Source of the DNA: a virus
Length of the DNA stretch: 38,690 bases
IMG/VR virus record: IMGVR_UViG_3300049718_000014
Span: 1 to 38,690 of that record
Reading direction: 5' to 3' (one strand)
A program made the position numbers and the translations under genes. Of the stretch, positions 7,430 through 21,739 are shown one piece after another (the first letter of the stretch is position 1; every line of letters starts with the position of its first letter). Under the pieces are notes generated by a model. It was given only the letters and a program-made list of their open reading frames with translations, ran no database searches and had not been told where the DNA came from.

Positions 7430-7837
7430 TTGAACGTCTTTGAAAACCACACCGAAGAATGCAAGGCCGCGATGGCGGTCCAGAATGCGGCGATCGCGGC
7501 GGCGCAGGAGCGCCTTGCCGAGCGGATCGCGACAGCGCGCTCGACGGAGGACGAGGAGACCATGGAGGCGCGCAGCAAGGCCGACGCGGAAATGGATGCC
7601 GCGCGCGCTGAGCACGACGACGCGGTCGAGGCCGCGCAGTGGGTCTACGGTGCGACCCTTGACCATTCGCGCGACACCGCGTGGAAGATCATCCAGAAGC
7701 GGTTGAGCATCTGGAACGGCGACTTGCCGGAAGAGTTGCCGGCGGCGCCCAAGATCGAGCAGCCGCAAGCGGCGGCGTCGAAGCTGCCGGCGGCGTTAGC
7801 GCTCGACGCCGCCGGCGTGGAACGAATGCCTTTTTGA
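7430..7837 (+). CDS. Alanine-rich helical protein with acidic centre
   Basis: 135 residues. TTG at 7430 is taken as the start because GGAGG at 7420-7424 lies five bases upstream and no ATG fits. Most of the protein is predicted helix rich in Ala, Glu and Arg (AAIAAAQERLAERIA, ADAEMDAARAEHDDAVEAAQW), probably a coiled coil. The C-terminal third is a Pro/Ala linker ending in a short hydrophobic tail, GVERMPF; acidic or hydrophobic tails of this kind occur in single-strand-binding accessory proteins. It is the last gene before a short untranslated gap with a hairpin. Function is unknown. Confidence 0.65.
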   Translation: MNVFENHTEECKAAMAVQNAAIAAAQERLAERIATARSTEDEETMEARSKADAEMDAARAEHDDAVEAAQWVYGATLDHSRDTAWKIIQKRLSIWNGDLPEELPAAPKIEQPQAAASKLPAALALDAAGVERMPF

Positions 7838-7847
7838 AACGACAAAA

Positions 7848-7869
7848 GCGCCCGGCCGTAGCCGGGCGC
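7848..7869 (-). terminator. Perfect 9-bp GC hairpin, T-tract only on minus strand
   Basis: GCGCCCGGC pairs with GCCGGGCGC across a four-base loop in the 52-base gap between 7837 and 7890. On the plus strand no T run follows, but on the minus strand the stem is followed by TTTTGTC. It may therefore stop minus-strand transcripts reading through from the late operon. On the plus strand it could still pause polymerase or protect the 3' end of the recT-operon messenger. Confidence 0.55.
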
Positions 7870-7889
7870 GATCAATTGGATGGCAAATT

Positions 7890-8138
7890 ATGACCTCCCA
7901 ATCCCCCCGCCCCTACACACCAGCGCAGAGGGCGGCGATGGAGTGGCTGCCGAGCGATGGAAGTTGGCGAACCGATTACGACGCCGACCTCGCAATTTCG
8001 CTCCACTCGCTGTTCAAACAAGGCGTCGTCGCAAGAACATCCGTGTCAAGCGGTTGGAAATACTGGCTCACGCCCCACGGCGTCGCCGAGAAGGCGAGGC
8101 TGGCGGCGATGAAAGGGAACGACAATGACGAAGGATGA
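7890..8138 (+). CDS. 82-residue protein, possible winged-helix-like fold
   Basis: ATG at 7890 follows GGATGG at 7878-7883. The first half has helices (TPAQRAAMEWLPSDGSW), then ISLHSLFKQGVVART, and a strand pair SSGWKYWLTPHGVAEKARL. The order of a helix ending in an aromatic turn, a second helix and a hydrophobic strand pair ending 'WKYWLTPHG' resembles small winged-helix proteins that end in 'xLTPxG'. DNA binding is inferred only from that resemblance. It overlaps the next gene by 14 bases. Confidence 0.65.
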   Translation: MTSQSPRPYTPAQRAAMEWLPSDGSWRTDYDADLAISLHSLFKQGVVARTSVSSGWKYWLTPHGVAEKARLAAMKGNDNDEG

Positions 8139-10949: not shown

Positions 10950-11606
10950 TTAGCTCGCTTTCTCGCCCTTGATTTGGGCCATTTGAAGTTCCAACGCTTT
11001 GAGATTCGACAAGTACAAGGCAATTGCGTGGTCGGCCATTGAAGGCGCCCCCGCGTGGATGGGCGAGCCGATCTCCGTCAGGCTGACGTTGTGCTTCCAC
11101 ATTGGCAATGGCGGGACCCCGCAGACCGGGTCGCCGCAATTGTGGTAGGAGACGGCCTCCAGCGCCGTCCTGATGAGCCCCGGCGCCGTCAAGTTCCCCA
11201 TGAACGCGCCGCGCGGGCAACCGAAGGTGACGACGCGCATAGGGGCAATCTTGTGCTTGAGCGCGACGAAGACCGCTCCCAGCACCTGCGCGAGTTGCGC
11301 GCCGAGTGAGTGGCCGGCGAAGATGACGCGGCCGTTCGCGGGGAGGTCCTTCAACACGGCCTCGCACAGCTTCAGCCCCCACAGCCCGAAGCCTTCGTGA
11401 TACGTCCCGATGTAGGGGAAGGGCTTCGGCCACGCCGAGAAGTCGATCATCCATTGCGCGAGGTTGACCGTGCCGGGGACGGCGACCACAAACTCATCGC
11501 CGATCTTTGTCCCAACAGCCCGCACGTCGTTGCCGCACTGCCACGTCGCGGGGACGTTGTAGGATTGGCCGACGAGCGCGCAGATTTGCTGATGGGTGAG
11601 CATCAC
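10950..11606 (-). CDS. Class-3-like lipase/esterase in the lysis region
   Basis: 218 residues with an alpha/beta-hydrolase signature. The nucleophile elbow is GHSLG (residues 98-102, Ser100), followed by a helix AQLAQVLGAVFVAL. Next come the strand MRVVTFGCPRGAF, NCGDPVCGVPP with candidate acid Asp159, and MADHAIALYL with candidate His193. This order and spacing fit lipase class 3. The start codons GTG-ATG (11606/11603) overlap the upstream stop. There is no signal peptide, so it would act inside the cell or leave through holin lesions. It may cleave ester bonds in membrane lipids during lysis, by analogy with phage LysB esterases; that is inference. Confidence 0.8.
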   Translation of the reverse strand: MMLTHQQICALVGQSYNVPATWQCGNDVRAVGTKIGDEFVVAVPGTVNLAQWMIDFSAWPKPFPYIGTYHEGFGLWGLKLCEAVLKDLPANGRVIFAGHSLGAQLAQVLGAVFVALKHKIAPMRVVTFGCPRGAFMGNLTAPGLIRTALEAVSYHNCGDPVCGVPPLPMWKHNVSLTEIGSPIHAGAPSMADHAIALYLSNLKALELQMAQIKGEKAS

Positions 11607-12511
11607 TGTGCCGTTGGGGCGGGAGTGGGCGACGCGGCCGGAGCCGTCACGGGCGCCGTCGGCGGAACGAGCGTGACGGCGGGAAGCTTGGCGCAGAAGG
11701 CAGGGAAGATCGGGACCGTGATATTAACGCCGACCGTCGCGATGGCGTTGGACGCTTCCGAGAAGACTTTCTGACAGGCCGCGTTGTCGCAGATTTGGTG
11801 GAACGCGGCGATCGTGATCCGCAGGCCCTCGACGTCTTCCGCGGCGTGGCCGGAGATCAGCTTCGGATGCACCTTGAGCACGGACATGAGCGTCTGGCCG
11901 GCGACCGCGCAGTCGTGGCCGTTGCCGTCTTGGATCGACGGGACGGCGAGCGATAGCGTCTCGGCCTCGTCGAGCCCTTGCTGGAAATAGTCGGTGATCG
12001 CCGTGAACAGGTCTGGCGCGGTCCCGTCCGCCATTGACGTACCTGACAGCTTCTTGTTGAGGCCGAGCGGGTCAATGATGGGGCCTGTTGCAACTGGCCT
12101 CGCAGCTTCGGCGGCTCGGACGATGGAAGGCGCGCCGAAGGCGAGAGCGCCGACGACCGTCGCGCCGACGAGAAGGGCGCTGGCGGTTTTCGCCGCGGCG
12201 GCGATGATCGTTGTGGCCGCGGTCTTCGTGGCCGTATCGATGGCTGTGTCATCCGCTTGCAACTTCGTCACCGCAGTGATGAGGGCGGAGTCCTTCGGCG
12301 CCAGGGGGCCTGGCGCGCTCGACGAATAGAGATGCAGCACACCGTTGACCGCGTTGAGGATGATGTTCAGGAAGGCGCAGGTGCTGATGATCGCCGTCGC
12401 AACGGCGATCGGGACATAGGACGGGAACGCCGTCGGGCTGAGAAAGGCGATGACCGATATGACGACGGCGAAAGCGCTGAACGCCACGCCAATCTTCGGA
12501 GAGAAGTTCAT
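11603..12511 (-). CDS. Multi-pass membrane protein of the lysis cassette, candidate holin
   Basis: 302 residues. Two N-terminal membrane segments (IGVAFSAFAVVISVIAFL, about 7-24, and YVPIAVATAIISTCAFLNIILNAV, about 32-55) are followed by a charged/Ala-rich stretch and a third hydrophobic segment (ALLVGATVVGALAFGAP, near 113-130). The remaining ~170 residues look soluble, contain four Cys (HDCAV, QICDNAACQ, AFCAKL) that could form disulfides in the periplasm, and end in a Pro/Ala/Thr tail. It lies between the muramidase and lipase. It is much longer than a classical holin, so it may combine a holin-like membrane part with a periplasmic domain. Confidence 0.6.
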   Translation of the reverse strand: MNFSPKIGVAFSAFAVVISVIAFLSPTAFPSYVPIAVATAIISTCAFLNIILNAVNGVLHLYSSSAPGPLAPKDSALITAVTKLQADDTAIDTATKTAATTIIAAAAKTASALLVGATVVGALAFGAPSIVRAAEAARPVATGPIIDPLGLNKKLSGTSMADGTAPDLFTAITDYFQQGLDEAETLSLAVPSIQDGNGHDCAVAGQTLMSVLKVHPKLISGHAAEDVEGLRITIAAFHQICDNAACQKVFSEASNAIATVGVNITVPIFPAFCAKLPAVTLVPPTAPVTAPAASPTPAPTAQ

Positions 12512-12521
12512 GGGATGCTCC

Positions 12522-13055
12522 TTATGCCGCGGCGTTCATTGCGAGCGCCTTAGCGCGAATACCATTCAGCCGGACCGTCCAGCCGCGGCCGAAATAAACC
12601 CACGTCGAGAGGCTTTGGAAGAACGTCGTCCTGTCGTCGCACAGCCGATTGATTAGCGCCGCGCCGTTCGACTTGGCGAAGGGCCGGATCGCCCCCAGCG
12701 TCTCAAGCCCAAACTGGCCGTCGACACTGACGCCGAGGACTCGCTGAAAATGTCTGATTGCCGTCACCGGCCCCGAACCCCAACCGTAATCCACCATGAC
12801 GAGATCGAGGCCAACATAAAGATCGTCGCCGCGCACCGGGTTCCAATATTGCTCGCGGTAGATCGTCTGGATTTCAGCGTCGCTGGCGGCGCGCACGGCC
12901 TGCGCTGGCAACCCCTTGCCGACCCGCCAAGCATTGTAGGCGGCCTGCGTTACGCCTTTCAGCGTCGCGCCGCCGGGATCGTGCGGATTGTTGACGTAGC
13001 CGCCCTCGAAACTCTCGGTCTCGTTGAAGCAAGCAAGGAAGTTCGACGCGGTCAT
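12522..13055 (-). CDS. GH108-family N-acetylmuramidase endolysin
   Basis: 177 residues from ATG at 13055. The N-terminal GH108 motif reads ESFEGGYVNNPHDPGGATLKGVTQ, with catalytic Glu17 in EGGY. The sequence continues with the helix AYNAWR, EIQTIYREQYWNPVRGDDL, and a middle domain with VDYGWGSGPVTAIRHFQRVLGV. The C-terminal region (GALINRLCDDRTTFFQSL, FGRGWTVRLNGI) matches the peptidoglycan-binding-3 domain usually attached to GH108. The enzyme cleaves the glycan backbone of peptidoglycan. No signal peptide is present, so export would rely on the membrane proteins next to it. Confidence 0.92.
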   Translation of the reverse strand: MTASNFLACFNETESFEGGYVNNPHDPGGATLKGVTQAAYNAWRVGKGLPAQAVRAASDAEIQTIYREQYWNPVRGDDLYVGLDLVMVDYGWGSGPVTAIRHFQRVLGVSVDGQFGLETLGAIRPFAKSNGAALINRLCDDRTTFFQSLSTWVYFGRGWTVRLNGIRAKALAMNAAA

Positions 13056-13147
13056 TTTCCAATTCTCCCGCCGACATAAACGAAAACCCATGCGAACAGC
13101 AGCAGCGCAAGCATCCCTTGCATCGAGATACCCACCTCGACGACCAT
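13052..13147 (-). CDS. 31-residue single-span membrane peptide
   Basis: ATG at 13147 overlaps the stop of the upstream peptidase as TGATG, and the peptide's own stop overlaps the muramidase start as ATGA. This double coupling strongly suggests it is a real gene. The sequence is a short polar N-terminus, a hydrophobic span MLALLLFAWVFVYVGG and a basic tail RIGK. A single-span peptide placed directly before the endolysin could be a small holin or a lysis regulator. No homologue can be named. Confidence 0.6.
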   Translation of the reverse strand: MVVEVGISMQGMLALLLFAWVFVYVGGRIGK

Positions 13148-13788
13148 CACGTCCTCACGAAAATCAATGAGCGGCGCGATACGAAGGCGCGGCCAACACG
13201 CCTAGACCAGTTGCCAGATACAACCTCGACCTTGTCGCCGAGCGACGCGACGACAACGCCGACGTGATAGGCGCCACGGCGGCCCATGAACACGGCGAGA
13301 TCGCCCGGCCGCCCGACGCTGTGCGGCCCGTAAGCCAGCGCGCTCGCCGCCATGCGGTTGGCGAGCGGCGGCCGGCCGGTGCGAATAAGCCATGCCGACG
13401 TGGCGTCGGCGCACCAGGCGCCCGGCTGGGCGGTGAACTTGCCTCTGCCGACATCGCGTAGCGCCTCGGCGACGAGGTCGGCGCCAATTCGCCACGTCGC
13501 CGCACCCGCGCCCCACGCCGCCCGCACGGCGATCGCCGGCGCGCCATCGGCGAGGCCCGGCGCGGCGAGCGCCGCAGCAGTCGGCGCGGGGCGCACGGTG
13601 GCGAACGCCACAGATCGCCGGCGATACATTCCATAGCGCCCCTGGTGATGGACCGCGGCGACGCGAGCGTGCGCCCAATGATGGGCGATCCGAGCGTGCG
13701 CCCATCTCGGGCCAGCCTCGGCCCCTCCGGATAGGCAAACGCACACGGCGAGCGCCAAGGCCGCCAGCAAGCCGCGTAGGGCCTTCAT
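13147..13788 (-). CDS. Exported CHAP/NlpC-like peptidoglycan hydrolase
   Basis: 213 residues from ATG at 13788, at a TGATG overlap with the spike gene. Residues 1-25 are a Sec-type signal peptide (LLAALALAVCVCLSGGAEA). An Arg/His/Ala-rich linker follows to about residue 90. The catalytic region has GAWCADATSAWL with Cys126, GDLAVFMGRRGAYHVGVV with His175 and VEVVSGNWSRRV, the pattern of TIGR02594/CHAP-type cysteine amidopeptidases. It would be exported and cut peptidoglycan cross-links or amide bonds from outside the membrane. Whether it aids lysis, or DNA entry with the spike, cannot be told. Confidence 0.75.
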   Translation of the reverse strand: MKALRGLLAALALAVCVCLSGGAEAGPRWAHARIAHHWAHARVAAVHHQGRYGMYRRRSVAFATVRPAPTAAALAAPGLADGAPAIAVRAAWGAGAATWRIGADLVAEALRDVGRGKFTAQPGAWCADATSAWLIRTGRPPLANRMAASALAYGPHSVGRPGDLAVFMGRRGAYHVGVVVASLGDKVEVVSGNWSRRVGRAFVSRRSLIFVRT

Positions 13789-15554
13789 CAATGCACATCC
13801 TTTGTGTATGTTGGCTGGGTCGTCGCCCAAGTCACGATGTAGCACTCCTTCGACTCGAGTTGAATCGTGTAGAACTCCCCGGCCGTTTTAAGCGCCGCCA
13901 CCTGCTGCGAGTTGATAGTGACCATTGCCGTGTTCGTCGCACTCTGCGTTAGGTAGTGGGTTTCTGGCGACGGGCCAGCGCAGATCGTCGCGGGCGACGT
14001 TCCGACACTTGCCGCGGCCGTTGTTCCGACAGGGTTGTAGCCGTTCAATTTGGCCACGCTAGCTGTCGCCAAAGCACCGATGCTGATTGGGCCTGAAGCG
14101 TTCCCGATCGCCTCGCCACCCTCGACAAACACCTTAGTCGCAGCGCTGTCTACCACAATGCCGTATCCTGAACCACCGCGTCCGTTAGGTGTAGTAGTAG
14201 TTCCTGCAATTGGTGCGACGATGCTAATATTTTGTGGCATTCCAGAATTATTAGATATTAGGATGCCGCTCCCGTTATTGTAGTTTGTAACAGGGGCAAT
14301 TAGCGTAACGTCGCTAACATTTGAGGATGCAAAAATCATTCCGCTGGCAGTTGTATTTACCGACGTGCTTTTTTGTGTTGACCCCCAGCACGCCGTACAA
14401 ACCATGACATTCATGGAGTTGACTGACCAATTGGAGGCGCCACTCGTGTCTCCTATGCAGTTTGTGCAGAAGAAATTCATATTTCCAGTGCTGCTCTTTC
14501 CAAGCCCCCAGCCTGAAACACTGTTATTATATGCAGTAACATTGGAGCCATAAAATCCGCCTTGGTCTACAATTTCGAACCCATCGTTACCGTTACCGTC
14601 TGATCGTGAATTGCTCAGGTACAGATCGGTACCGCCAATTGTGTAGAATCCGTCATGCAGCACATCCGACGCGGAAAAATTCTCTACAACCACGGCTGAA
14701 GAATTTATTATCGACAGCCCATCGTAAAGAGCTGATGGGAATTGCGACGGGGAGACCCCACGCACAATTACGCTGTCTACTTTATTTAGCTTAAACCCAC
14801 TATTTCCCGCGACTGCTGTGACTCCGGACTTTTGTCCGACCCCGCACGTTCCGTCGAACCCGGTGCTATAATATGTGTTAGTCCCATCGCCAAATTGTAT
14901 CGCATAGCTATTCGTTGTGTTGTTTACAATTATTACTCCTTCATCGCAGGTTATATTAACACGATTAAGAGCGATTTGCACGCCACCCATAACGTAATAG
15001 GTGTTGCTTGGAGTGACAAAAGGAAACCGAATATTGCAGCCGCCAGAACTTGAGCAGGCCGCCAGCAGCGCGGTCCATTTCGTGGTATTGTCCGTCGAGC
15101 CATCGGCGACGAAACCATAATCGAGAACGTTCAGCGTAGGATAGATGGTTGTTGGAGCAACGTCACTGGGGTTTGCAGTCGCCCCAGTAATATTAGCCTT
15201 GACCGTATAGGCCGCCATCTGTGCGGCCTTGGCGTTCGTCACGGCGTTGTTGACGAGGCCCGCAGTCGGCAGCCCCGTCGCATTGGTCAGATCAATCGCT
15301 GGGCCAGTGCCGAACACCAGCGGGCCCGTCCCCGTCTTATCCGGCACAGCGGCGGCGAGATTGGCGGAGGTCGGGGCAAGAAGCCACGCCGGGACATTAG
15401 TCCCAAGCACAAACGGGCCTGGAATCGCCGACCCGCCGCCAAAGTTCGCGCATGCGGCGCCGGGGAGGAACACGCCCGAGCATGTCGCCGCCGCCGGCCC
15501 GGCAAACAGCGCCGCAAGAGCAAGCGCGGAGAGGAAGCGGAGGAAAGAGCGCAT
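13788..15554 (-). CDS. Beta-helix tail spike / pectate-lyase-like protein with signal peptide
   Basis: 588 residues from ATG at 15554 (TAATG overlap with the upstream gene). Residues 1-23 are a clear Sec signal (RFLSALALAALFAGPAAA). A linker with GxFVLGTNVPAWLLAP and GLPTAGLVNNAV precedes a pectate-lyase-3-type entry, LNVLDYGFVADGSTDNTTKW, at about 145-165. The next ~330 residues show right-handed beta-helix character: repeated short strands with Asn, Ser, Gly and Val (VENFSASDVLHDGFYTIGG, GNGNDGFEIVDQGGFYGSN). The final ~80 residues form a separate cap. Such proteins bind or depolymerise surface polysaccharide. The middle of the gene is visibly more AT-rich than its neighbours, a sign of recent acquisition. 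Confidence 0.78.
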   Translation of the reverse strand: MRSFLRFLSALALAALFAGPAAATCSGVFLPGAACANFGGGSAIPGPFVLGTNVPAWLLAPTSANLAAAVPDKTGTGPLVFGTGPAIDLTNATGLPTAGLVNNAVTNAKAAQMAAYTVKANITGATANPSDVAPTTIYPTLNVLDYGFVADGSTDNTTKWTALLAACSSSGGCNIRFPFVTPSNTYYVMGGVQIALNRVNITCDEGVIIVNNTTNSYAIQFGDGTNTYYSTGFDGTCGVGQKSGVTAVAGNSGFKLNKVDSVIVRGVSPSQFPSALYDGLSIINSSAVVVENFSASDVLHDGFYTIGGTDLYLSNSRSDGNGNDGFEIVDQGGFYGSNVTAYNNSVSGWGLGKSSTGNMNFFCTNCIGDTSGASNWSVNSMNVMVCTACWGSTQKSTSVNTTASGMIFASSNVSDVTLIAPVTNYNNGSGILISNNSGMPQNISIVAPIAGTTTTPNGRGGSGYGIVVDSAATKVFVEGGEAIGNASGPISIGALATASVAKLNGYNPVGTTAAASVGTSPATICAGPSPETHYLTQSATNTAMVTINSQQVAALKTAGEFYTIQLESKECYIVTWATTQPTYTKDVH

Positions 15555-15961
15555 TAGACAACCTTCCACATATTCGAGCCATTACTGCGCAGGCGCATCG
15601 ATCCATAGGCTGTCGTGATTGTCAGAGACGTCGCGCCGCTGATGTGATCCGACCCAGCGGCCGCGACGGTGATCGTGATCGTCGCCGAGCAGTTGCCAGA
15701 ATCGTCCGCGATGAGCAGATCGGTTCCGACCGGGAACGCCGACGCCGCGAGGAGTGTGACGACTCTCGATGAGGTCAGCGTAGCGAACGAGACCTCGCGG
15801 TCGGACGCCAAAACCGCATAGGCCGCGTCGGCGACCGCCGTGCGGCTGGCGACGGCGGCGTTGATCTGCGCGGCGATCCCGCTCGCGCCGCCGAATTGGT
15901 TCTGCGGCGATCCGGGATCGGCGGTAGGAATGATCGTTGCAACGGTGGTTGTTGCGGCCAT
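15554..15961 (-). CDS. Beta-rich fibre-associated protein
   Basis: 135 residues. A flexible N-terminus (TTTVATIIPTADPGSPQNQFGGASG) is followed by helix AAQINAAVASRTAVADAAY. The rest is a beta-rich domain with the pattern 'ITITVAAAGSDHISGATSLTITTAYGSMRLRSNGSNMWKVV' spread over residues ~92-135. The GSDxIxGA motif followed by 'SMRLRSNGSxMW' is widespread in phage fibre and decoration proteins. A similar motif occurs in the 441-residue protein at 29616. It lies between the collar protein and the spike, so a tail-fibre or adaptor role is likely. Confidence 0.6.
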   Translation of the reverse strand: MAATTTVATIIPTADPGSPQNQFGGASGIAAQINAAVASRTAVADAAYAVLASDREVSFATLTSSRVVTLLAASAFPVGTDLLIADDSGNCSATITITVAAAGSDHISGATSLTITTAYGSMRLRSNGSNMWKVV

Positions 15962-15964
15962 GGG

Positions 15965-16825
15965 TCAGGTCCAAACGATTTTGTTGCACACGATCGTCGG
16001 CTGCGTATTTTGATGGGCGGACCCGGAGCCTGCCGGGGCTAGCGTGATGCCCGTCGTCGCGGTGTTGATCGCAATGCCGGTGGTCGCTGTATTGGTGATG
16101 AATCCGGCATCTGTGGCCTGCACCAACACGCTGCCTGTGGTGCCAGACCCGCGGGCGCCGATGTTGATGTTGTTTCCAAAACCGTGATAATGGCCGGCAT
16201 CGGTGATCCCGTGCAAATGGCCTAGATCGGTCAGCGTATGATTGTGCGACGCCAGCTCGCCGGTGATAAGTGCATGGGTTTCCGCGCCTCCGACCGCACC
16301 GAGCGTCGATCCGACGATCCCGGACCCGCCAGAGGTCAGCCGGTTCGCCGCCGTGCCACCCATGTTGTCGACGCCGGCCGCCGCGCGCCCGCGCAGATCG
16401 GGCATCCCAAAAGTTGTGACGCCGTCGCCGCCGAAGGTCGTCCCGAACAACGCGCCGAGCGCCGGATAGGACGCGATGAGTAGGACTTGGCCGTAAGCGA
16501 GAAGACTGCCGGGGGGGATGGACGCGGCGGGCCCCCACCAATCGGCGCCGGTTCCCGTCGCGCCCTTTGGCGTGTAGATGTGGTTCGTCGCGTCGAGATA
16601 GCCCATCGTCAGCCAATCGGTTCCGTCACTGATCTGGACAGGCCACGGCGAAACCGATGTGTTGAGCCACAATTGGCCGGCCGGCATCGACGACGCCGCA
16701 TTGGCCGGCGGCGCCGCGCCGCTGTTCATCGTGACGAGGGCGTCGAACGCCAGATTGAGGTTGTCGACCAAAGACAAGCCGGAAAGCGTGCCTGACGTAG
16801 GATTGACGAGTGAACCTTGGCTCAT
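15965..16825 (-). CDS. Tail-collar-domain fibre protein
   Basis: 286 residues. The C-terminal half carries the phage tail collar signature: GSLLAYGQVLLIASYPALGALFGTTFGGDGVTTFGMPDLRGRAAAGVDNMGG spread over residues ~105-157, followed by the Gly/His-rich receptor-side segment (SHNHTLTDLGHLHGITDAGHYHGF) whose histidines suit metal binding in a trimer. The end reads TQPTIVCNKIVWT, as in Mdp-type collar proteins, which finish 'QPxxxxNxIIxT'. The N-terminal third has strands that likely attach it to the baseplate. It is a short-fibre or receptor-binding protein. Confidence 0.85.
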   Translation of the reverse strand: MSQGSLVNPTSGTLSGLSLVDNLNLAFDALVTMNSGAAPPANAASSMPAGQLWLNTSVSPWPVQISDGTDWLTMGYLDATNHIYTPKGATGTGADWWGPAASIPPGSLLAYGQVLLIASYPALGALFGTTFGGDGVTTFGMPDLRGRAAAGVDNMGGTAANRLTSGGSGIVGSTLGAVGGAETHALITGELASHNHTLTDLGHLHGITDAGHYHGFGNNINIGARGSGTTGSVLVQATDAGFITNTATTGIAINTATTGITLAPAGSGSAHQNTQPTIVCNKIVWT

Positions 16826-17200: not shown

Positions 17201-20200
17201 TCAGTAGCCCTCGAAATCAGCGTTGATCGTGCGCGCGACGCCGACCCCGCCGTTGGTGATTTGCAGCGTGACATGCACATCCGTCAGACCCATCACGTTC
17301 AGGAGATCGCCGGCTTGCGGATTGATGATCGTCACGCTGACGTAGGGGACCGTCGAACCGTTCGGTCCGCCGTTGAAGATTGCCGGCCGCGTATCGCCAT
17401 CCGGGGTGAAGACGAACATCCGTCCGCCGGCCGGAAGTGCGTAGTTGTTCATGTGGTCGTTTCGCGCCGGCGCCGAGACTGTGAATGAGAATGCCGAGAG
17501 GTTGCAGATCGTCTGCGGGTCGATCGTCGACAGCAGTATGCGGAAGTTGAAATACTGCCCGTTGTAGGCGCCCGGCGCGTAATTTTGCCAAGGCCCGTAA
17601 ATGGCGTTCCCTTCGTAAACGTCTGGAAGTATGTAGACGTTCGAAGCGTCGTAAAGGTCAGGATCATTTGTGCCAATCTGGATTTGCGGAACGGCGTCAA
17701 TGAACTGCGTCGACCCCGAACCGAGGATGTCGGCGAGTGTGAGTACGTTTGCGGCGGCCAGGATGTTTCCGCCGATCGGCGATCCTTCCGCCGCCCAGGT
17801 CACGGTCACCGCGCAGGCCGCGGTGCGCCCGGCGTTGATGACGTGGGTGAGCGGGATCTGATAGGAGCCGTTCCCCGGCGTCGATTGGAGCAACTCGCCG
17901 ACGATCGCGGCGTCGCCAGAGAGCGCGCCGCTCCATCTCGTCGCGACCTCATCCCACGATTGCAGGATGTTCGTGACGAGCAGGTTGCCGGCAATCTCGA
18001 TCGAAACCGGCGTCTCGCTGTAGACGAGAATTCCCGGCGCCGGCGTCGACTTCGCCGCGACCCAGAACGTACCGTCGCCGCGCGTCGCGAACGGCGGGTG
18101 CGCGACGGTCCCAAGCGTCAGTGCGCCGGCCCACGAACTGCCGACGCGGACTTCGTAAGTGACCGCGCGGAAGTCTGAGACCTCCGTCCAATTCAGATTG
18201 GCGAAGCTGTCGACGTAGTTGGTCGTCAGATTGGTGACATTGGGCAACGGAGATGAAAGCGCCGAGCCCTTGACGACGTATGGATAGGGCGCGACGTCCG
18301 CGAGATTTTGCGCCGCGACGCCAAACTGATTGAACGCGCAGAACTTGAAATAGACGGTCGACCCGACCTGCTGCGAAGTGAAGTTCCACTGATAGGCAGA
18401 CCCGTCCAACCGCATGAACGGCGCGCGGATCGCATGGGCGGCAATCGAAGACGTGTACGCGCCGCGAGACAGCGTCGTCAGATCGTAAGCGCTGGCCCCG
18501 ATCAACGTCGCGGTTTTGTAAGCCAGGACTTCGCTATCGACTACGCTTACCGTCGCGAGAGCGTCGAACGCCACGGACGACACGGATATCAGTTGTGTCT
18601 CGGACTCGCTCAGATTGACGGCGAGCGTGTTCGTCGCATCGATGGTCTGACCGCTCGGCGCTTCCGCCACGCTCGGCAAGGTCGCGGTCAGGACGCCCAT
18701 GCGCGTTGCGCCGGGCCATGATTCCAGAAACGAGTAATTCTCGCCGTCGGTCGAGAGATAAACGTCGCAGCCGCCGTAGTTGGCCGGCACAGACCCAGAG
18801 AGGCCGATCAGAAGGCAAAGTCCGTCGCCAAGCTGATCAGGCGGCTCAAAGAAGAAAGGCGCGTTGACGCTGCCCGAAGGGGCATTGTTGAACCGTCCGG
18901 CGCCGATGCTGGCCTGCGTGTTGTAGATCGGCGCCGACGCGGTGAGAGGAACCTCTTCGAACGTGAGCGTAAGCGTCGAGTCGGAGTTCTCGTCGATCTG
19001 CGTGATGCGGACGAGTTGGTTGACGAGTTGGAACGACGGCTCGGTCAGCGTGACGAGGTCGAGCACGTCGAGCAAGACGAACTGCCGCCCGACCGTGCAT
19101 TGCCACTGCCGCATCTGCGCCTGGATGCGCTGAAGCTGCAATGCGGCCGAGACACTCGCCGCCGAGGCGAGACTGAAAAACGAGTTGTCCTTGACGTCCG
19201 ACAGGCGCACGCGCGACGTCGCCGTGATTGATGCGTCGTCGGTCGCGTAGATCGTGACGGGGTTGTAGAGGTTCGACCGATCGTTGTATTTGATCTGAAG
19301 CTTATTGAAGACGTCGAGCGGGTTCGCCGCCGAGAACGCGAGGAACGATTTTCCCGAGGCGGAGCCTTGGCCGAGCGATCCTTGATTTGGCAGGAAGTCG
19401 TCGACGCCGAGATCGTAGACCGGCGTGGTGTTCGGCGTGTAGGTATAGCCGTTTCCCGTGACCGAGACGTCGCCGTAAGGCACGATGTCGAAGACGGCGC
19501 CGGACTGGCGGAAGTCGCAGTTCAGCGCATCCATCAACGCCTTGATATGCGAGTTCGCGGATGTCTGCGACGCGAGCGTCAGCGAGATCATCATGCCGGT
19601 CGCGCGCCAGTAATTGCGCGCGGTGTCGAAGTCGCCGATCACCGATGACGGAAAGCCCTGCACGCCCCAATCTTGATTGGTCAGGAAGGCTTTAATCCAG
19701 TCAGCGGGGTTTGCGTCCGGGCCGAGCGCCGGAATGTCGGAATTGATCGCCCATGTCACCTCGACGTTGAACGCCGGGAAGCTCGGCGACGAGCCGAGTT
19801 GCAGGTTCGGCCAAATGACGTAGGAGAGGCCGCGATAGGCGAGCGCATGCGACGGAAAGTTCGCTTGCCACCAAGAGTCGTTGGTCTGCCCGTAATCGCC
19901 GACATGAAAGATGGTGTTGTAAGTGCCGTTTCCCTGCGTGATGTCGCTCGACGGGATACCCATCGCATTGAGGTCGGCAAGCATTTGCGCGGTCGGCGGG
20001 ACGAGAAAGTCGACGTTCGACCCGTTGTAGATCGTGCAGACCTGCGTGATCTGCCCTTCGCCAAGCAGCGACAGGCCGGAGCACGAATAGGTATACTGGC
20101 CGGTGTTGCCCTTACCGCTCGACCCGACGACGCCACCCTTTCCACCCGATGACTTGGTTTGCGTCGCGGTGAAGCCGGCGTAGTCGATCAGGATCGGCGC

Positions 20201-20320
20201 CCAACGCACCTGGCCGCAGCCGATCGGGATTGGCGTGCCCTGAACCGACGCCGAGACGCGCAGCGCGGCGGCGACCGGGTCCGAGTTGTTCGTCCGGTTC
20301 GATCGGAAGAGGTTCGCCAC
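17201..20320 (-). CDS. Central tail-tip / host-specificity protein (GTA gp15-like)
   Basis: 1039 residues, the largest gene of the window. The N-terminus (DPVAAALRVSASVQGTPIPIGCGQVRW) matches the opening of baseplate hub proteins. Residues ~60-300 include AYRGLSYVIWPNLQLG and PAFNVEVTW, typical of the TIGR-type GTA tail protein, followed by ADWIKAFLTNQDWG and SLTLASQTSANSHIKALMDALNC. Two or more fibronectin-like beta regions follow (for example YVDSFANLNWTEVSDFRAVTYEVRVG near 730). The C-terminal ~150 residues include a GGRMFVFTPDGD strand. The NlpC gene directly upstream and the DUF2163 and DUF2460 genes before it match the RcGTA gene order. It is likely the central tip of the tail. Confidence 0.8.
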   Translation of the reverse strand: MANLFRSNRTNNSDPVAAALRVSASVQGTPIPIGCGQVRWAPILIDYAGFTATQTKSSGGKGGVVGSSGKGNTGQYTYSCSGLSLLGEGQITQVCTIYNGSNVDFLVPPTAQMLADLNAMGIPSSDITQGNGTYNTIFHVGDYGQTNDSWWQANFPSHALAYRGLSYVIWPNLQLGSSPSFPAFNVEVTWAINSDIPALGPDANPADWIKAFLTNQDWGVQGFPSSVIGDFDTARNYWRATGMMISLTLASQTSANSHIKALMDALNCDFRQSGAVFDIVPYGDVSVTGNGYTYTPNTTPVYDLGVDDFLPNQGSLGQGSASGKSFLAFSAANPLDVFNKLQIKYNDRSNLYNPVTIYATDDASITATSRVRLSDVKDNSFFSLASAASVSAALQLQRIQAQMRQWQCTVGRQFVLLDVLDLVTLTEPSFQLVNQLVRITQIDENSDSTLTLTFEEVPLTASAPIYNTQASIGAGRFNNAPSGSVNAPFFFEPPDQLGDGLCLLIGLSGSVPANYGGCDVYLSTDGENYSFLESWPGATRMGVLTATLPSVAEAPSGQTIDATNTLAVNLSESETQLISVSSVAFDALATVSVVDSEVLAYKTATLIGASAYDLTTLSRGAYTSSIAAHAIRAPFMRLDGSAYQWNFTSQQVGSTVYFKFCAFNQFGVAAQNLADVAPYPYVVKGSALSSPLPNVTNLTTNYVDSFANLNWTEVSDFRAVTYEVRVGSSWAGALTLGTVAHPPFATRGDGTFWVAAKSTPAPGILVYSETPVSIEIAGNLLVTNILQSWDEVATRWSGALSGDAAIVGELLQSTPGNGSYQIPLTHVINAGRTAACAVTVTWAAEGSPIGGNILAAANVLTLADILGSGSTQFIDAVPQIQIGTNDPDLYDASNVYILPDVYEGNAIYGPWQNYAPGAYNGQYFNFRILLSTIDPQTICNLSAFSFTVSAPARNDHMNNYALPAGGRMFVFTPDGDTRPAIFNGGPNGSTVPYVSVTIINPQAGDLLNVMGLTDVHVTLQITNGGVGVARTINADFEGY

Positions 20321-20770: not shown

Positions 20771-21739
20771 TTAGCCGATCTGAATCTCTGGCTGCGGCGT
20801 ATAGGGAGCGCCGAGGAAGTTGATGGTGTTGGCGAACCCGCCGCAGCCGCCGGCGCCGAGGCTCTTGTCGCAGCCCGGATAGAATGTCCATCCATCTCCC
20901 GTCGCGACCGCAAACGGCCACGCATACTGAGGCTGAAACGCGGTTCCGACGTGCGCGACGATCGAGCGCTGCAATCCGGCGTTGAGCCCGGACGTGCAGA
21001 GCATCCGCCCTTGCGCATATGTCCCCGAACCGCCGGGAGCCGCCGGGCTGGCAAGCACGCTGTATTGCGTCGAGCCGGCGAGCGCCGTCGCCGTCTCGGC
21101 GAAGCTCGCCGCGCTGAGCGTGCATCGTGCGTCGAACAACTGATGCCGGCACGACGCCTGCACAAGGTTGCGCGGCATGTTCATGCTGAGCAGATATTTG
21201 TACGACGAGCAGTTGAAGAAGCAGAGCGTCGGCGTCGCGTCGACCTCGCCGATGATCCCGCCGTAGATGACGATGGACCCTACGCAGGTGCGCGTGGCGA
21301 CGCTGTAGGGCGCTGTTGGCGGCGCGGCCCAATAGGCGCGCGCGACCTGAACCGTCGCGCTGGCGAACAGCCCGGCGCGGCACGCGGCGAGCCACGGCGT
21401 CGAGCCAAACACGTCGGGGAAAGTGAACGCACCCGAGAATTGGTCCTGAACTGTGGGCGCTAGCGCGACCGTCCACGAATCGTCATCGAGGCCGCGCGTC
21501 CACTTGCCCTGAACCTTCGACTGCTTCGTGTCGACCTTGGGATAGCCGGAGCCGATCGAGCCGCAGGAATAGATGTTGGCCGCGTTGTCGATCGCGTCGA
21601 AGTCGCCGGTGCAGAGACGAATGACCGGGCCGTTGACCGGCGTGAACGTGTAGAGGTCGACCGAGTAGAGCGTCGAGGCCGCTCCTTGCGCAATTGCCGC
21701 GTTGAGCAGCGTCGTGAGTGCCGGCGAGGCGGTTTTCAT
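20771..21739 (-). CDS. DUF2163/BR0599-type baseplate hub protein (GTA gp13-like)
   Basis: 322 residues. The N-terminus (ALTTLLNAAIAQGAASTLYSVDLYTFT) and the strands after it match the beta-rich DUF2163 domain. The C-terminal signature is FYPGCDKSLGAGGCGGFANTINFLGAPYTPQPEI, with cysteines as in BR0599-like proteins, and an earlier CRHQLFDARCTL segment likewise has paired Cys. GTA gp13 is a hub component that carries cysteines possibly binding an iron-sulfur cluster. The gene order with the NlpC peptidase next to it supports the assignment. Confidence 0.85.
   Translation of the reverse strand: MKTASPALTTLLNAAIAQGAASTLYSVDLYTFTPVNGPVIRLCTGDFDAIDNAANIYSCGSIGSGYPKVDTKQSKVQGKWTRGLDDDSWTVALAPTVQDQFSGAFTFPDVFGSTPWLAACRAGLFASATVQVARAYWAAPPTAPYSVATRTCVGSIVIYGGIIGEVDATPTLCFFNCSSYKYLLSMNMPRNLVQASCRHQLFDARCTLSAASFAETATALAGSTQYSVLASPAAPGGSGTYAQGRMLCTSGLNAGLQRSIVAHVGTAFQPQYAWPFAVATGDGWTFYPGCDKSLGAGGCGGFANTINFLGAPYTPQPEIQIG

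Follow-up and report, generated by a model that had tools for sequence, protein, structure and literature searches.

Predicted Sec signal peptides on a phage spike and its CHAP-like neighbor, and a possible periplasmic route of fiber assembly

In the IMG/VR virus record IMGVR_UViG_3300049718_000014 (38,690 bases, analyzed over its whole length and referred to here as the window), the gene in the spike position of the tail operon and the adjacent gene for a CHAP-like hydrolase both encode predicted Sec signal peptides, and export of both proteins is highly likely. The chances are close to even that the spike belongs to the virion, folding in the periplasm and docking at lysis, a reading favored here over that of a free enzyme. 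The more general proposal of an outside-in completion, with a host-recognition fiber exported by Sec, oxidatively folded in the periplasm, and joined to otherwise complete virions at lysis, is put forward tentatively, a little short of even.

Genomic context and signal peptides

Profile matches revealed a tailed-phage structural module on the minus strand, which included portal, head protease, major head protein, tape measure, and a gene transfer agent (GTA)-like tail tip with a terminal "megatron"-type protein. Past the latter, the gene order was collar fiber, fibA, spike, CHAP-like hydrolase, GH108 lysin, membrane protein, and lipase (Table 1). The membrane protein had no family match in profile searches. 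The class 3 lipase gene (Pfam, 4e-11; window positions 10950-11606) lies in the lysis region and is kept in relatives L052 and L077.

Table 1. Features of the spike and lysis region in the window
Feature	Position	Strand	Basis
Spike/receptor-binding protein, 588 aa, 12 Cys; layout: signal peptide, two-Cys motif, fiber-type linker, presumed beta-helix body, conserved C terminus TTQPTYTKDVH	13788..15554	-	Weak PHROG_31144 match (5.6e-5); weak pectate-lyase similarity
Predicted spike Sec/SPI signal peptide, residues 1-23, cleavage A23/T24	15486..15554	-	Signal-peptide score 9.53
Mature spike N-terminal motif TCSGVF..GxxCAN....AIPxP, residues 24-47	15414..15485	-	Alignments of relatives
CHAP-like (TIGR02594-related) peptidoglycan hydrolase, 213 aa, with signal peptide	13147..13788	-	Family matches
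Predicted CHAP protein signal peptide, residues 1-25, AEA/G	13714..13788	-	Signal-peptide score 9.62
CHAP catalytic stretch, Cys126 (13411-13413) to His175 (13264-13266)	13264..13413	-	WCAD and H-V-G invariant in six relatives
Small tail fiber protein fibA, 135 aa, without signal peptide	15554..15961	-	PHROG baseplate, 2.9e-5
Tail collar-domain fiber protein without signal peptide, possible second receptor-binding protein	15965..16825	-	Pfam Collar, 2.1e-15
GTA megatron-like baseplate/host-specificity protein, without signal peptide	17201..20320	-	PHROG_1101, 8.6e-66; NCBIfam GTA_megatron, 1.7e-22, below cutoff
GH108 endolysin without signal peptide, conventional cytoplasmic lysin	12522..13055	-	Pfam GH108, 8e-23
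Membrane protein, possible holin	11603..12511	-	Hydrophobic N-terminal segments

The spike begins with MRSFLRFLSALALAALFAGPAAA, followed after the predicted cleavage site by TCSGVF, and the CHAP-like hydrolase begins with MKALRGLLAALALAVCVCLSGGAEA, followed by GPRW. Both N termini have a charged n-region, a hydrophobic core of 8 to 14 residues, and an A-X-A site within approximately 20 to 30 residues, which were the criteria used for Sec/SPI signal peptides. On a home-made score for these features (charged n-region, hydrophobic h-region, and A-X-A-type cleavage site), the spike (9.5) and the CHAP protein (9.6) were level with the exported controls OmpA (9.8), DsbA (9.8), and MalE (9.2). The initial annotation had placed Sec signal peptides on both neighbors and proposed signal-peptide prediction as a check; both open reading frames were found on the minus strand where it had located them, and the prediction bore the claim out. 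Among the 39 called genes of the window, scores above 8.5 were confined to the spike, the CHAP protein, and the membrane protein. In phage lambda, used as a control, only Lom (9.9; annotated as an outer-membrane protein) and Rz (9.9; with an N-terminal membrane segment) scored above 8.5, and none of the lambda virion proteins did. Scores of at least 9 were obtained for 7 of the 1,158 candidate start codons across the whole window (0.6%), so that high scores arising by chance in two adjacent real genes are unlikely. Counts of signal peptides among relatives are conservative, as the CHAP proteins of L049, L062, and L063 and the fiber of L128 were scored as lacking a signal peptide although one is visible, their scores falling just below the threshold or another start codon being used.

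The spike ATG overlaps the fibA stop codon (gtctaATG; TAATG), with ggaagg 7 nt ahead of it, and the CHAP ATG overlaps the spike stop codon (ttgATG; TGATG); the three genes are translationally coupled by these overlaps. The next in-frame ATG of the spike gene is codon 113. The overlapping stops and starts, the Shine-Dalgarno-like sequences, and the lack of an alternative ATG nearby make both starts secure, and a frameshift or mis-called spike start was rejected on the basis of the overlap and the Shine-Dalgarno-like site. A lipoprotein (SPII) identity was also rejected, as the lipobox L-[AS]-[GA]-C is absent (spike, AAAT-C; CHAP, AEA-G), which implies signal peptidase I. Entry of both predicted proteins into the Sec pathway is well supported by textbook signal peptides that are kept in relatives, by the secure starts, and by a cysteine pattern typical of periplasmic folding.

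CHAP-like hydrolase and lysis region

The designation CHAP-like, made in the initial annotation, agreed with the motif W125-C126-A-D and with H175, which were invariant in six relatives, but family scores lay below the curated cutoffs (Pfam CHAP, 18.9 bits versus 26; TIGR02594, 30.7 versus 70.55). Residues A23, A25, and R28 were invariant in the alignment of CHAP proteins. Homologues were found in four genome bins and on 19 viral contigs, among which myo-, sipho-, and podoviral types were represented; nearly all of them had a signal peptide, and in the IMG/VR relatives the neighboring spike or fiber often carried one too. A conventional lysin (GH108 or amidase) usually lies 3' of the CHAP gene in relatives, which favors an accessory, exported role in the lysis module for the CHAP protein over one as the sole lysin. 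These sequences agree well with a putative role in which the protein is exported and cuts the wall at lysis. Identity as a SAR endolysin was considered and rejected, since the N terminus consists of a strong hydrophobic core followed by an AEA/G cleavage site instead of a weakly hydrophobic, uncleaved anchor.

CHAP homologues were also located beside recO on chromosomes of Hyphomicrobiales metagenome-assembled genomes, outside prophages (L058:8917-9459 and L059:8608-9354), with the same signal peptide and the same GRAGP mature start as the phage gene. The position of these copies suggests that phages probably captured a cellular exported hydrolase. In several relatives (L045:16705-17259; L049 and L050 near 7500-7930; L057:5096-5521; L061:7618-8004), one or two small exported proteins of undefined function are encoded in the interval from the spike gene to the CHAP gene or immediately ahead of the latter, so that exported genes follow one another throughout this segment. 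Directly after a signal-peptide-bearing fiber and ahead of the CHAP gene, glycine-rich proteins with signal peptides are encoded at L051:6801-7724 and L062:7129-7998.

Spike and its closest relatives

The gene in the spike position of relatives L045, L048, and L050 encodes the same 23-residue signal peptide plan (in L045 by alignment), followed by the motif [TSA]C[ST]G[VL]F..[GN]..C.N...[AS].[AL]P.P. The signal peptide and the two-cysteine motif are therefore kept in four phages, including that of the window, whose spike bodies are strongly different. A kept motif joined to swapped bodies would be expected of a virion-docking end with exchanged receptor ends. The small upstream fiber gene in these three relatives ends at, or a few bases from, the spike start. 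The spike of L049 has a different signal peptide yet shares its C terminus with the window spike. The GC content of the window spike gene falls from 0.68 in the N-terminal part to 0.50 in the body, a mosaic typical of receptor-binding genes. With its tail-operon position and its conserved N terminus with swapped bodies, the window spike resembles classical tailspikes; its signal peptide is the trait that sets it apart from them. The fibA domain is repeated inside long fibers without signal peptides in L066 and L070.

The spike was initially described as a beta-helix protein; sequence support for this label was weak (pectate lyase 5olp, E = 0.45), and AlphaFold modeling of the whole spike from a five-sequence alignment gave a pLDDT of 32. 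Profile searches detected no catalytic family in the spike, and its N terminus contains neither a T7-type docking domain nor a family match but the motif described above. When 50,697 phage records were searched by tblastn with the spike, the CHAP protein, and N-terminal pieces as queries, no named phage emerged as an informative relative of the window spike; the single match, MW202483, was confined to a common fiber linker in a protein without a signal peptide. A genome scan with the spike N terminus yielded no relative, and a search of Beijerinckiaceae yielded only weak matches in which the motif was missing.

Podoviral relatives with a T7 gp17-type domain

On two podoviral contigs whose CHAP gene belongs to the window family (L052 and L060, the former also sharing the holin-like and lipase genes of the window), a fiber is encoded in which a signal peptide is followed by a 160-residue domain. 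The signal peptide preceded this domain in all 12 IMG/VR records that contained it. In an hhalign comparison, the combined domain alignment matched the T7 gp17 N-terminal family (E = 6.6e-5, probability 64%). When the domain was modeled with AlphaFold (pLDDT of 65, with core blocks mostly at 75 to 89), the top PDB matches of the model (Foldseek, 4e-3) were mainly fiber chains of podovirus tail complexes, including those of HRP29 (8es4_F), LME-1 (9efk_AE), T7 (7ey9_a), P-SCSP1u (8i4m_M), and Kp7 (7y22). Nine viral models matched at E < 1e-3, and lower named matches included tail fiber and pectate-lyase tailspike proteins. Based on these modest scores and a middling model, the podoviral domain appears to be homologous to the tail-docking domain of T7 gp17.

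The gene for the docking domain was single copy in 10 of 10 records checked, and a gp16-like internal virion protein (PHROG 342) directly preceded the signal-peptide-bearing fiber in all three records tested (L077, L079, and L084). An orthologue without a signal peptide in L098 likewise directly follows a gp16-like gene, and this is the T7 order. Other homologues without signal peptides were found in a Microcystis phage (E = 2e-4) and in genomes of Beijerinckiaceae and other Hyphomicrobiales (profile E values down to 1.6e-30); one genome bin (L108) encodes the signal-peptide form of the fiber. The podoviral relative in L079 matches Pfam Beta_helix (1e-6). Given an export signal and a docking domain in one polypeptide, the fibers of the podoviral relatives can hardly be regarded as purely free enzymes.

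A second, unrelated class of signal-peptide-bearing fibers, with the mature start CPTRPVGDNSNACASTAFV, was observed on podoviral contigs (L116 to L121, L128, L129, and L051:5840-6799), and fiber export signals appear to have arisen more than once. Fiber-like proteins with signal peptides on contigs resembling Bacteroidetes phages (L006:5098 and L130) suggest that the trait extends past Alphaproteobacteria.

Cysteine content

Most of the cysteines of the window spike form close pairs (25/35, 167/173, 203/237, 363/366, and 386/389, plus 525/571). The median cysteine content was 1.58% in fibers with signal peptides versus 0.24% in other fibers with the same linker (P = 5e-10), a comparison that mixes hosts and was hence redone inside one fiber family and in a new sample. 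Within the T7-type family, cysteine density was higher in signal-peptide-bearing fibers (P = 4.6e-5), and an even number of cysteines was found in 10 of 10 fibers with signal peptides versus 2 of 8 without (P = 0.0015); a CxC pair is present in the signal-peptide-bearing form, with none at that place in the other. Cysteine enrichment in fibers with signal peptides was found again in a further, broader sample of 62 fibers (P = 0.0026), in which even-count parity was not significant (6 of 9 versus 20 of 40); because some of the sampled records share ancestry with others, the P values are optimistic throughout. The richness and pairing of cysteines are a trace that would be expected from oxidative folding in the periplasm.

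Discussion

Both signal peptides, the coupled translation, the conservation, the cysteine pattern, and the podoviral fusion of signal peptide and docking domain are read from sequence, and from them we infer export, cleavage, disulfide formation, and docking at lysis. The spike would be a late-expressed receptor-binding protein produced from the tail operon alongside a wall hydrolase. It would be exported by Sec to the periplasm, where its signal peptide would be removed and where it would fold and trimerize with disulfide bonds, and it would be stored there during head and tail assembly in the cytoplasm. Virions would mix with the periplasmic spikes as the envelope gives way to the combined action of holin, GH108 lysin, and exported CHAP hydrolase (the putative periplasmic half of a two-lysin module), and the spikes could dock onto the virions via the N-terminal domain; surplus spikes would be released as soluble surface-polymer binders or enzymes. 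Docking is carried over here from the podoviral relatives to the window spike, for which the conserved N-terminal motif and the gene position point to it. Exporting a virion part away from the site of cytoplasmic assembly looks inefficient, which speaks against this model, and the collar fiber is another candidate receptor-binding protein, so that the virion could do without the spike. Hosts of this phage group are probably Hyphomicrobiales.

The initial annotation had reasoned from export to free enzymes instead of a tail spike. Sec entry is well supported, but the second step does not follow from it and is weakened by the podoviral relatives, in which a T7 gp17-type docking domain comes immediately after the signal peptide and the gene, the only one of its kind found in the record, occupies the place of gp17. 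A soluble enzyme or adhesin that is exported, freed at lysis to bind or cut polysaccharides, and never part of the virion is an unlikely identity for the window spike. Such a protein would be in keeping with the signal peptide and the cysteine pattern, with the adjacent hydrolase and the further exported genes of relatives, and with a separate collar fiber that could serve as the virion receptor-binding protein; it would have no need of an N-terminal motif kept despite swapped bodies, and the translational coupling to a tail gene and the lack of a detected catalytic family also argue against it.

A protein of lysogenic conversion or superinfection exclusion, at the surface or in the periplasm and altering the host envelope, has a precedent in lambda Lom, which is encoded right after the host-specificity gene J and shows that tail-region genes can be exported. 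This is an improbable reading of the window genes: both are coupled to tail genes, promoter-like sites were not clearly above those in shuffled sequences, with none ahead of the spike on its own strand, and the phage-fiber linker and docking domains would be left without a role. We also doubt strongly that the hydrophobic N terminus is retained as a membrane or tail anchor or as a cytoplasmic aid to trimerization. Lambda Rz does keep such a stretch at an equally high score, but in the fibers and CHAP proteins considered here diverse peptides end in A-X-A sites at a similar distance, mature starts are conserved (PAFA/Q; GRAGPP in CHAP), and cysteine enrichment and even counts accompany the signal peptide. 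That the true spike begins downstream, without a signal peptide, is very improbable; in-frame GTG codons at positions 28, 49, and 70 would allow it, but the annotated ATG has the overlap and upstream ggaagg described above, with no other ATG before codon 113, and overlapping or near-overlapping starts recur in L045, L048, and L050.

The initial premise, that signal peptides are normally absent from virion spikes, agreed with the lambda and T7-type proteins checked but not with this phage group. The podoviral relatives resemble T7 gp17-type fibers in the homologous domain, the order after a gp16-like protein, the variable C-terminal receptor part, and the single copy, and differ from them in the cleavable-type Sec signal peptide and the CxC pair; no signal peptide was found in the T7-type fibers of cultured phages that were checked, T7 included. 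The window spike differs from gp17 in having a signal peptide and another N-terminal motif. It is similar to the tailspikes of P22 and Sf6 and to Klebsiella K-depolymerases in its short conserved N terminus, presumed beta-helix, swapped C-terminal parts, and tail-operon position, whereas those proteins lack signal peptides and the window spike is only a putative enzyme. The P22 tailspike can be joined to finished heads outside the cell. Lom is likewise an exported protein encoded next to a host-specificity gene, but it is an outer-membrane protein, not fiber-like, and unlinked to docking domains. The recO-adjacent CHAP protein of Hyphomicrobiales is a homologous exported protein with the GRAGP mature start, differing in being a cellular gene outside prophages. 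Secreted and SAR endolysins have been described (PMC6116005), as has a lysis module that includes an esterase with a signal peptide (PMC10975493). The putative CHAP hydrolase, encoded beside a lysis region, resembles the SAR endolysins and the secreted endolysins with true signal peptides, such as Lys44 of Oenococcus phage fOg44, in being a Sec-directed phage wall hydrolase (compare PMC6116005); the window differs in also encoding a GH108 lysin without a signal peptide, and the N terminus of its CHAP protein has a cleavage site and so looks like a signal peptide instead of a SAR anchor. Searches of an open-access library turned up no description of tail fibers or spikes with Sec signal peptides.

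In the prevailing view, assembly of tailed phages is completed in the cytoplasm, a reducing compartment, and their fibers therefore avoid disulfide bonds. If the proposed route is correct, tailed phages would have a second assembly compartment, a two-compartment route, and disulfide-bonded fibers, which would be a different way to very stable host-binding proteins and would make fibers dependent on host factors (for example, SecA or DsbA). Such fiber genes may be labeled by annotation pipelines as secreted proteins of the host or as free depolymerases, and their products may misfold when made recombinantly in the cytoplasm.

Apart from the spike, the tail-assembly (GTA gp13-like) protein encoded at window positions 20771-21739 contains 11 cysteines in 322 residues, far above the other structural genes, and possibly binds metal, as in the gene transfer agent tail hub.
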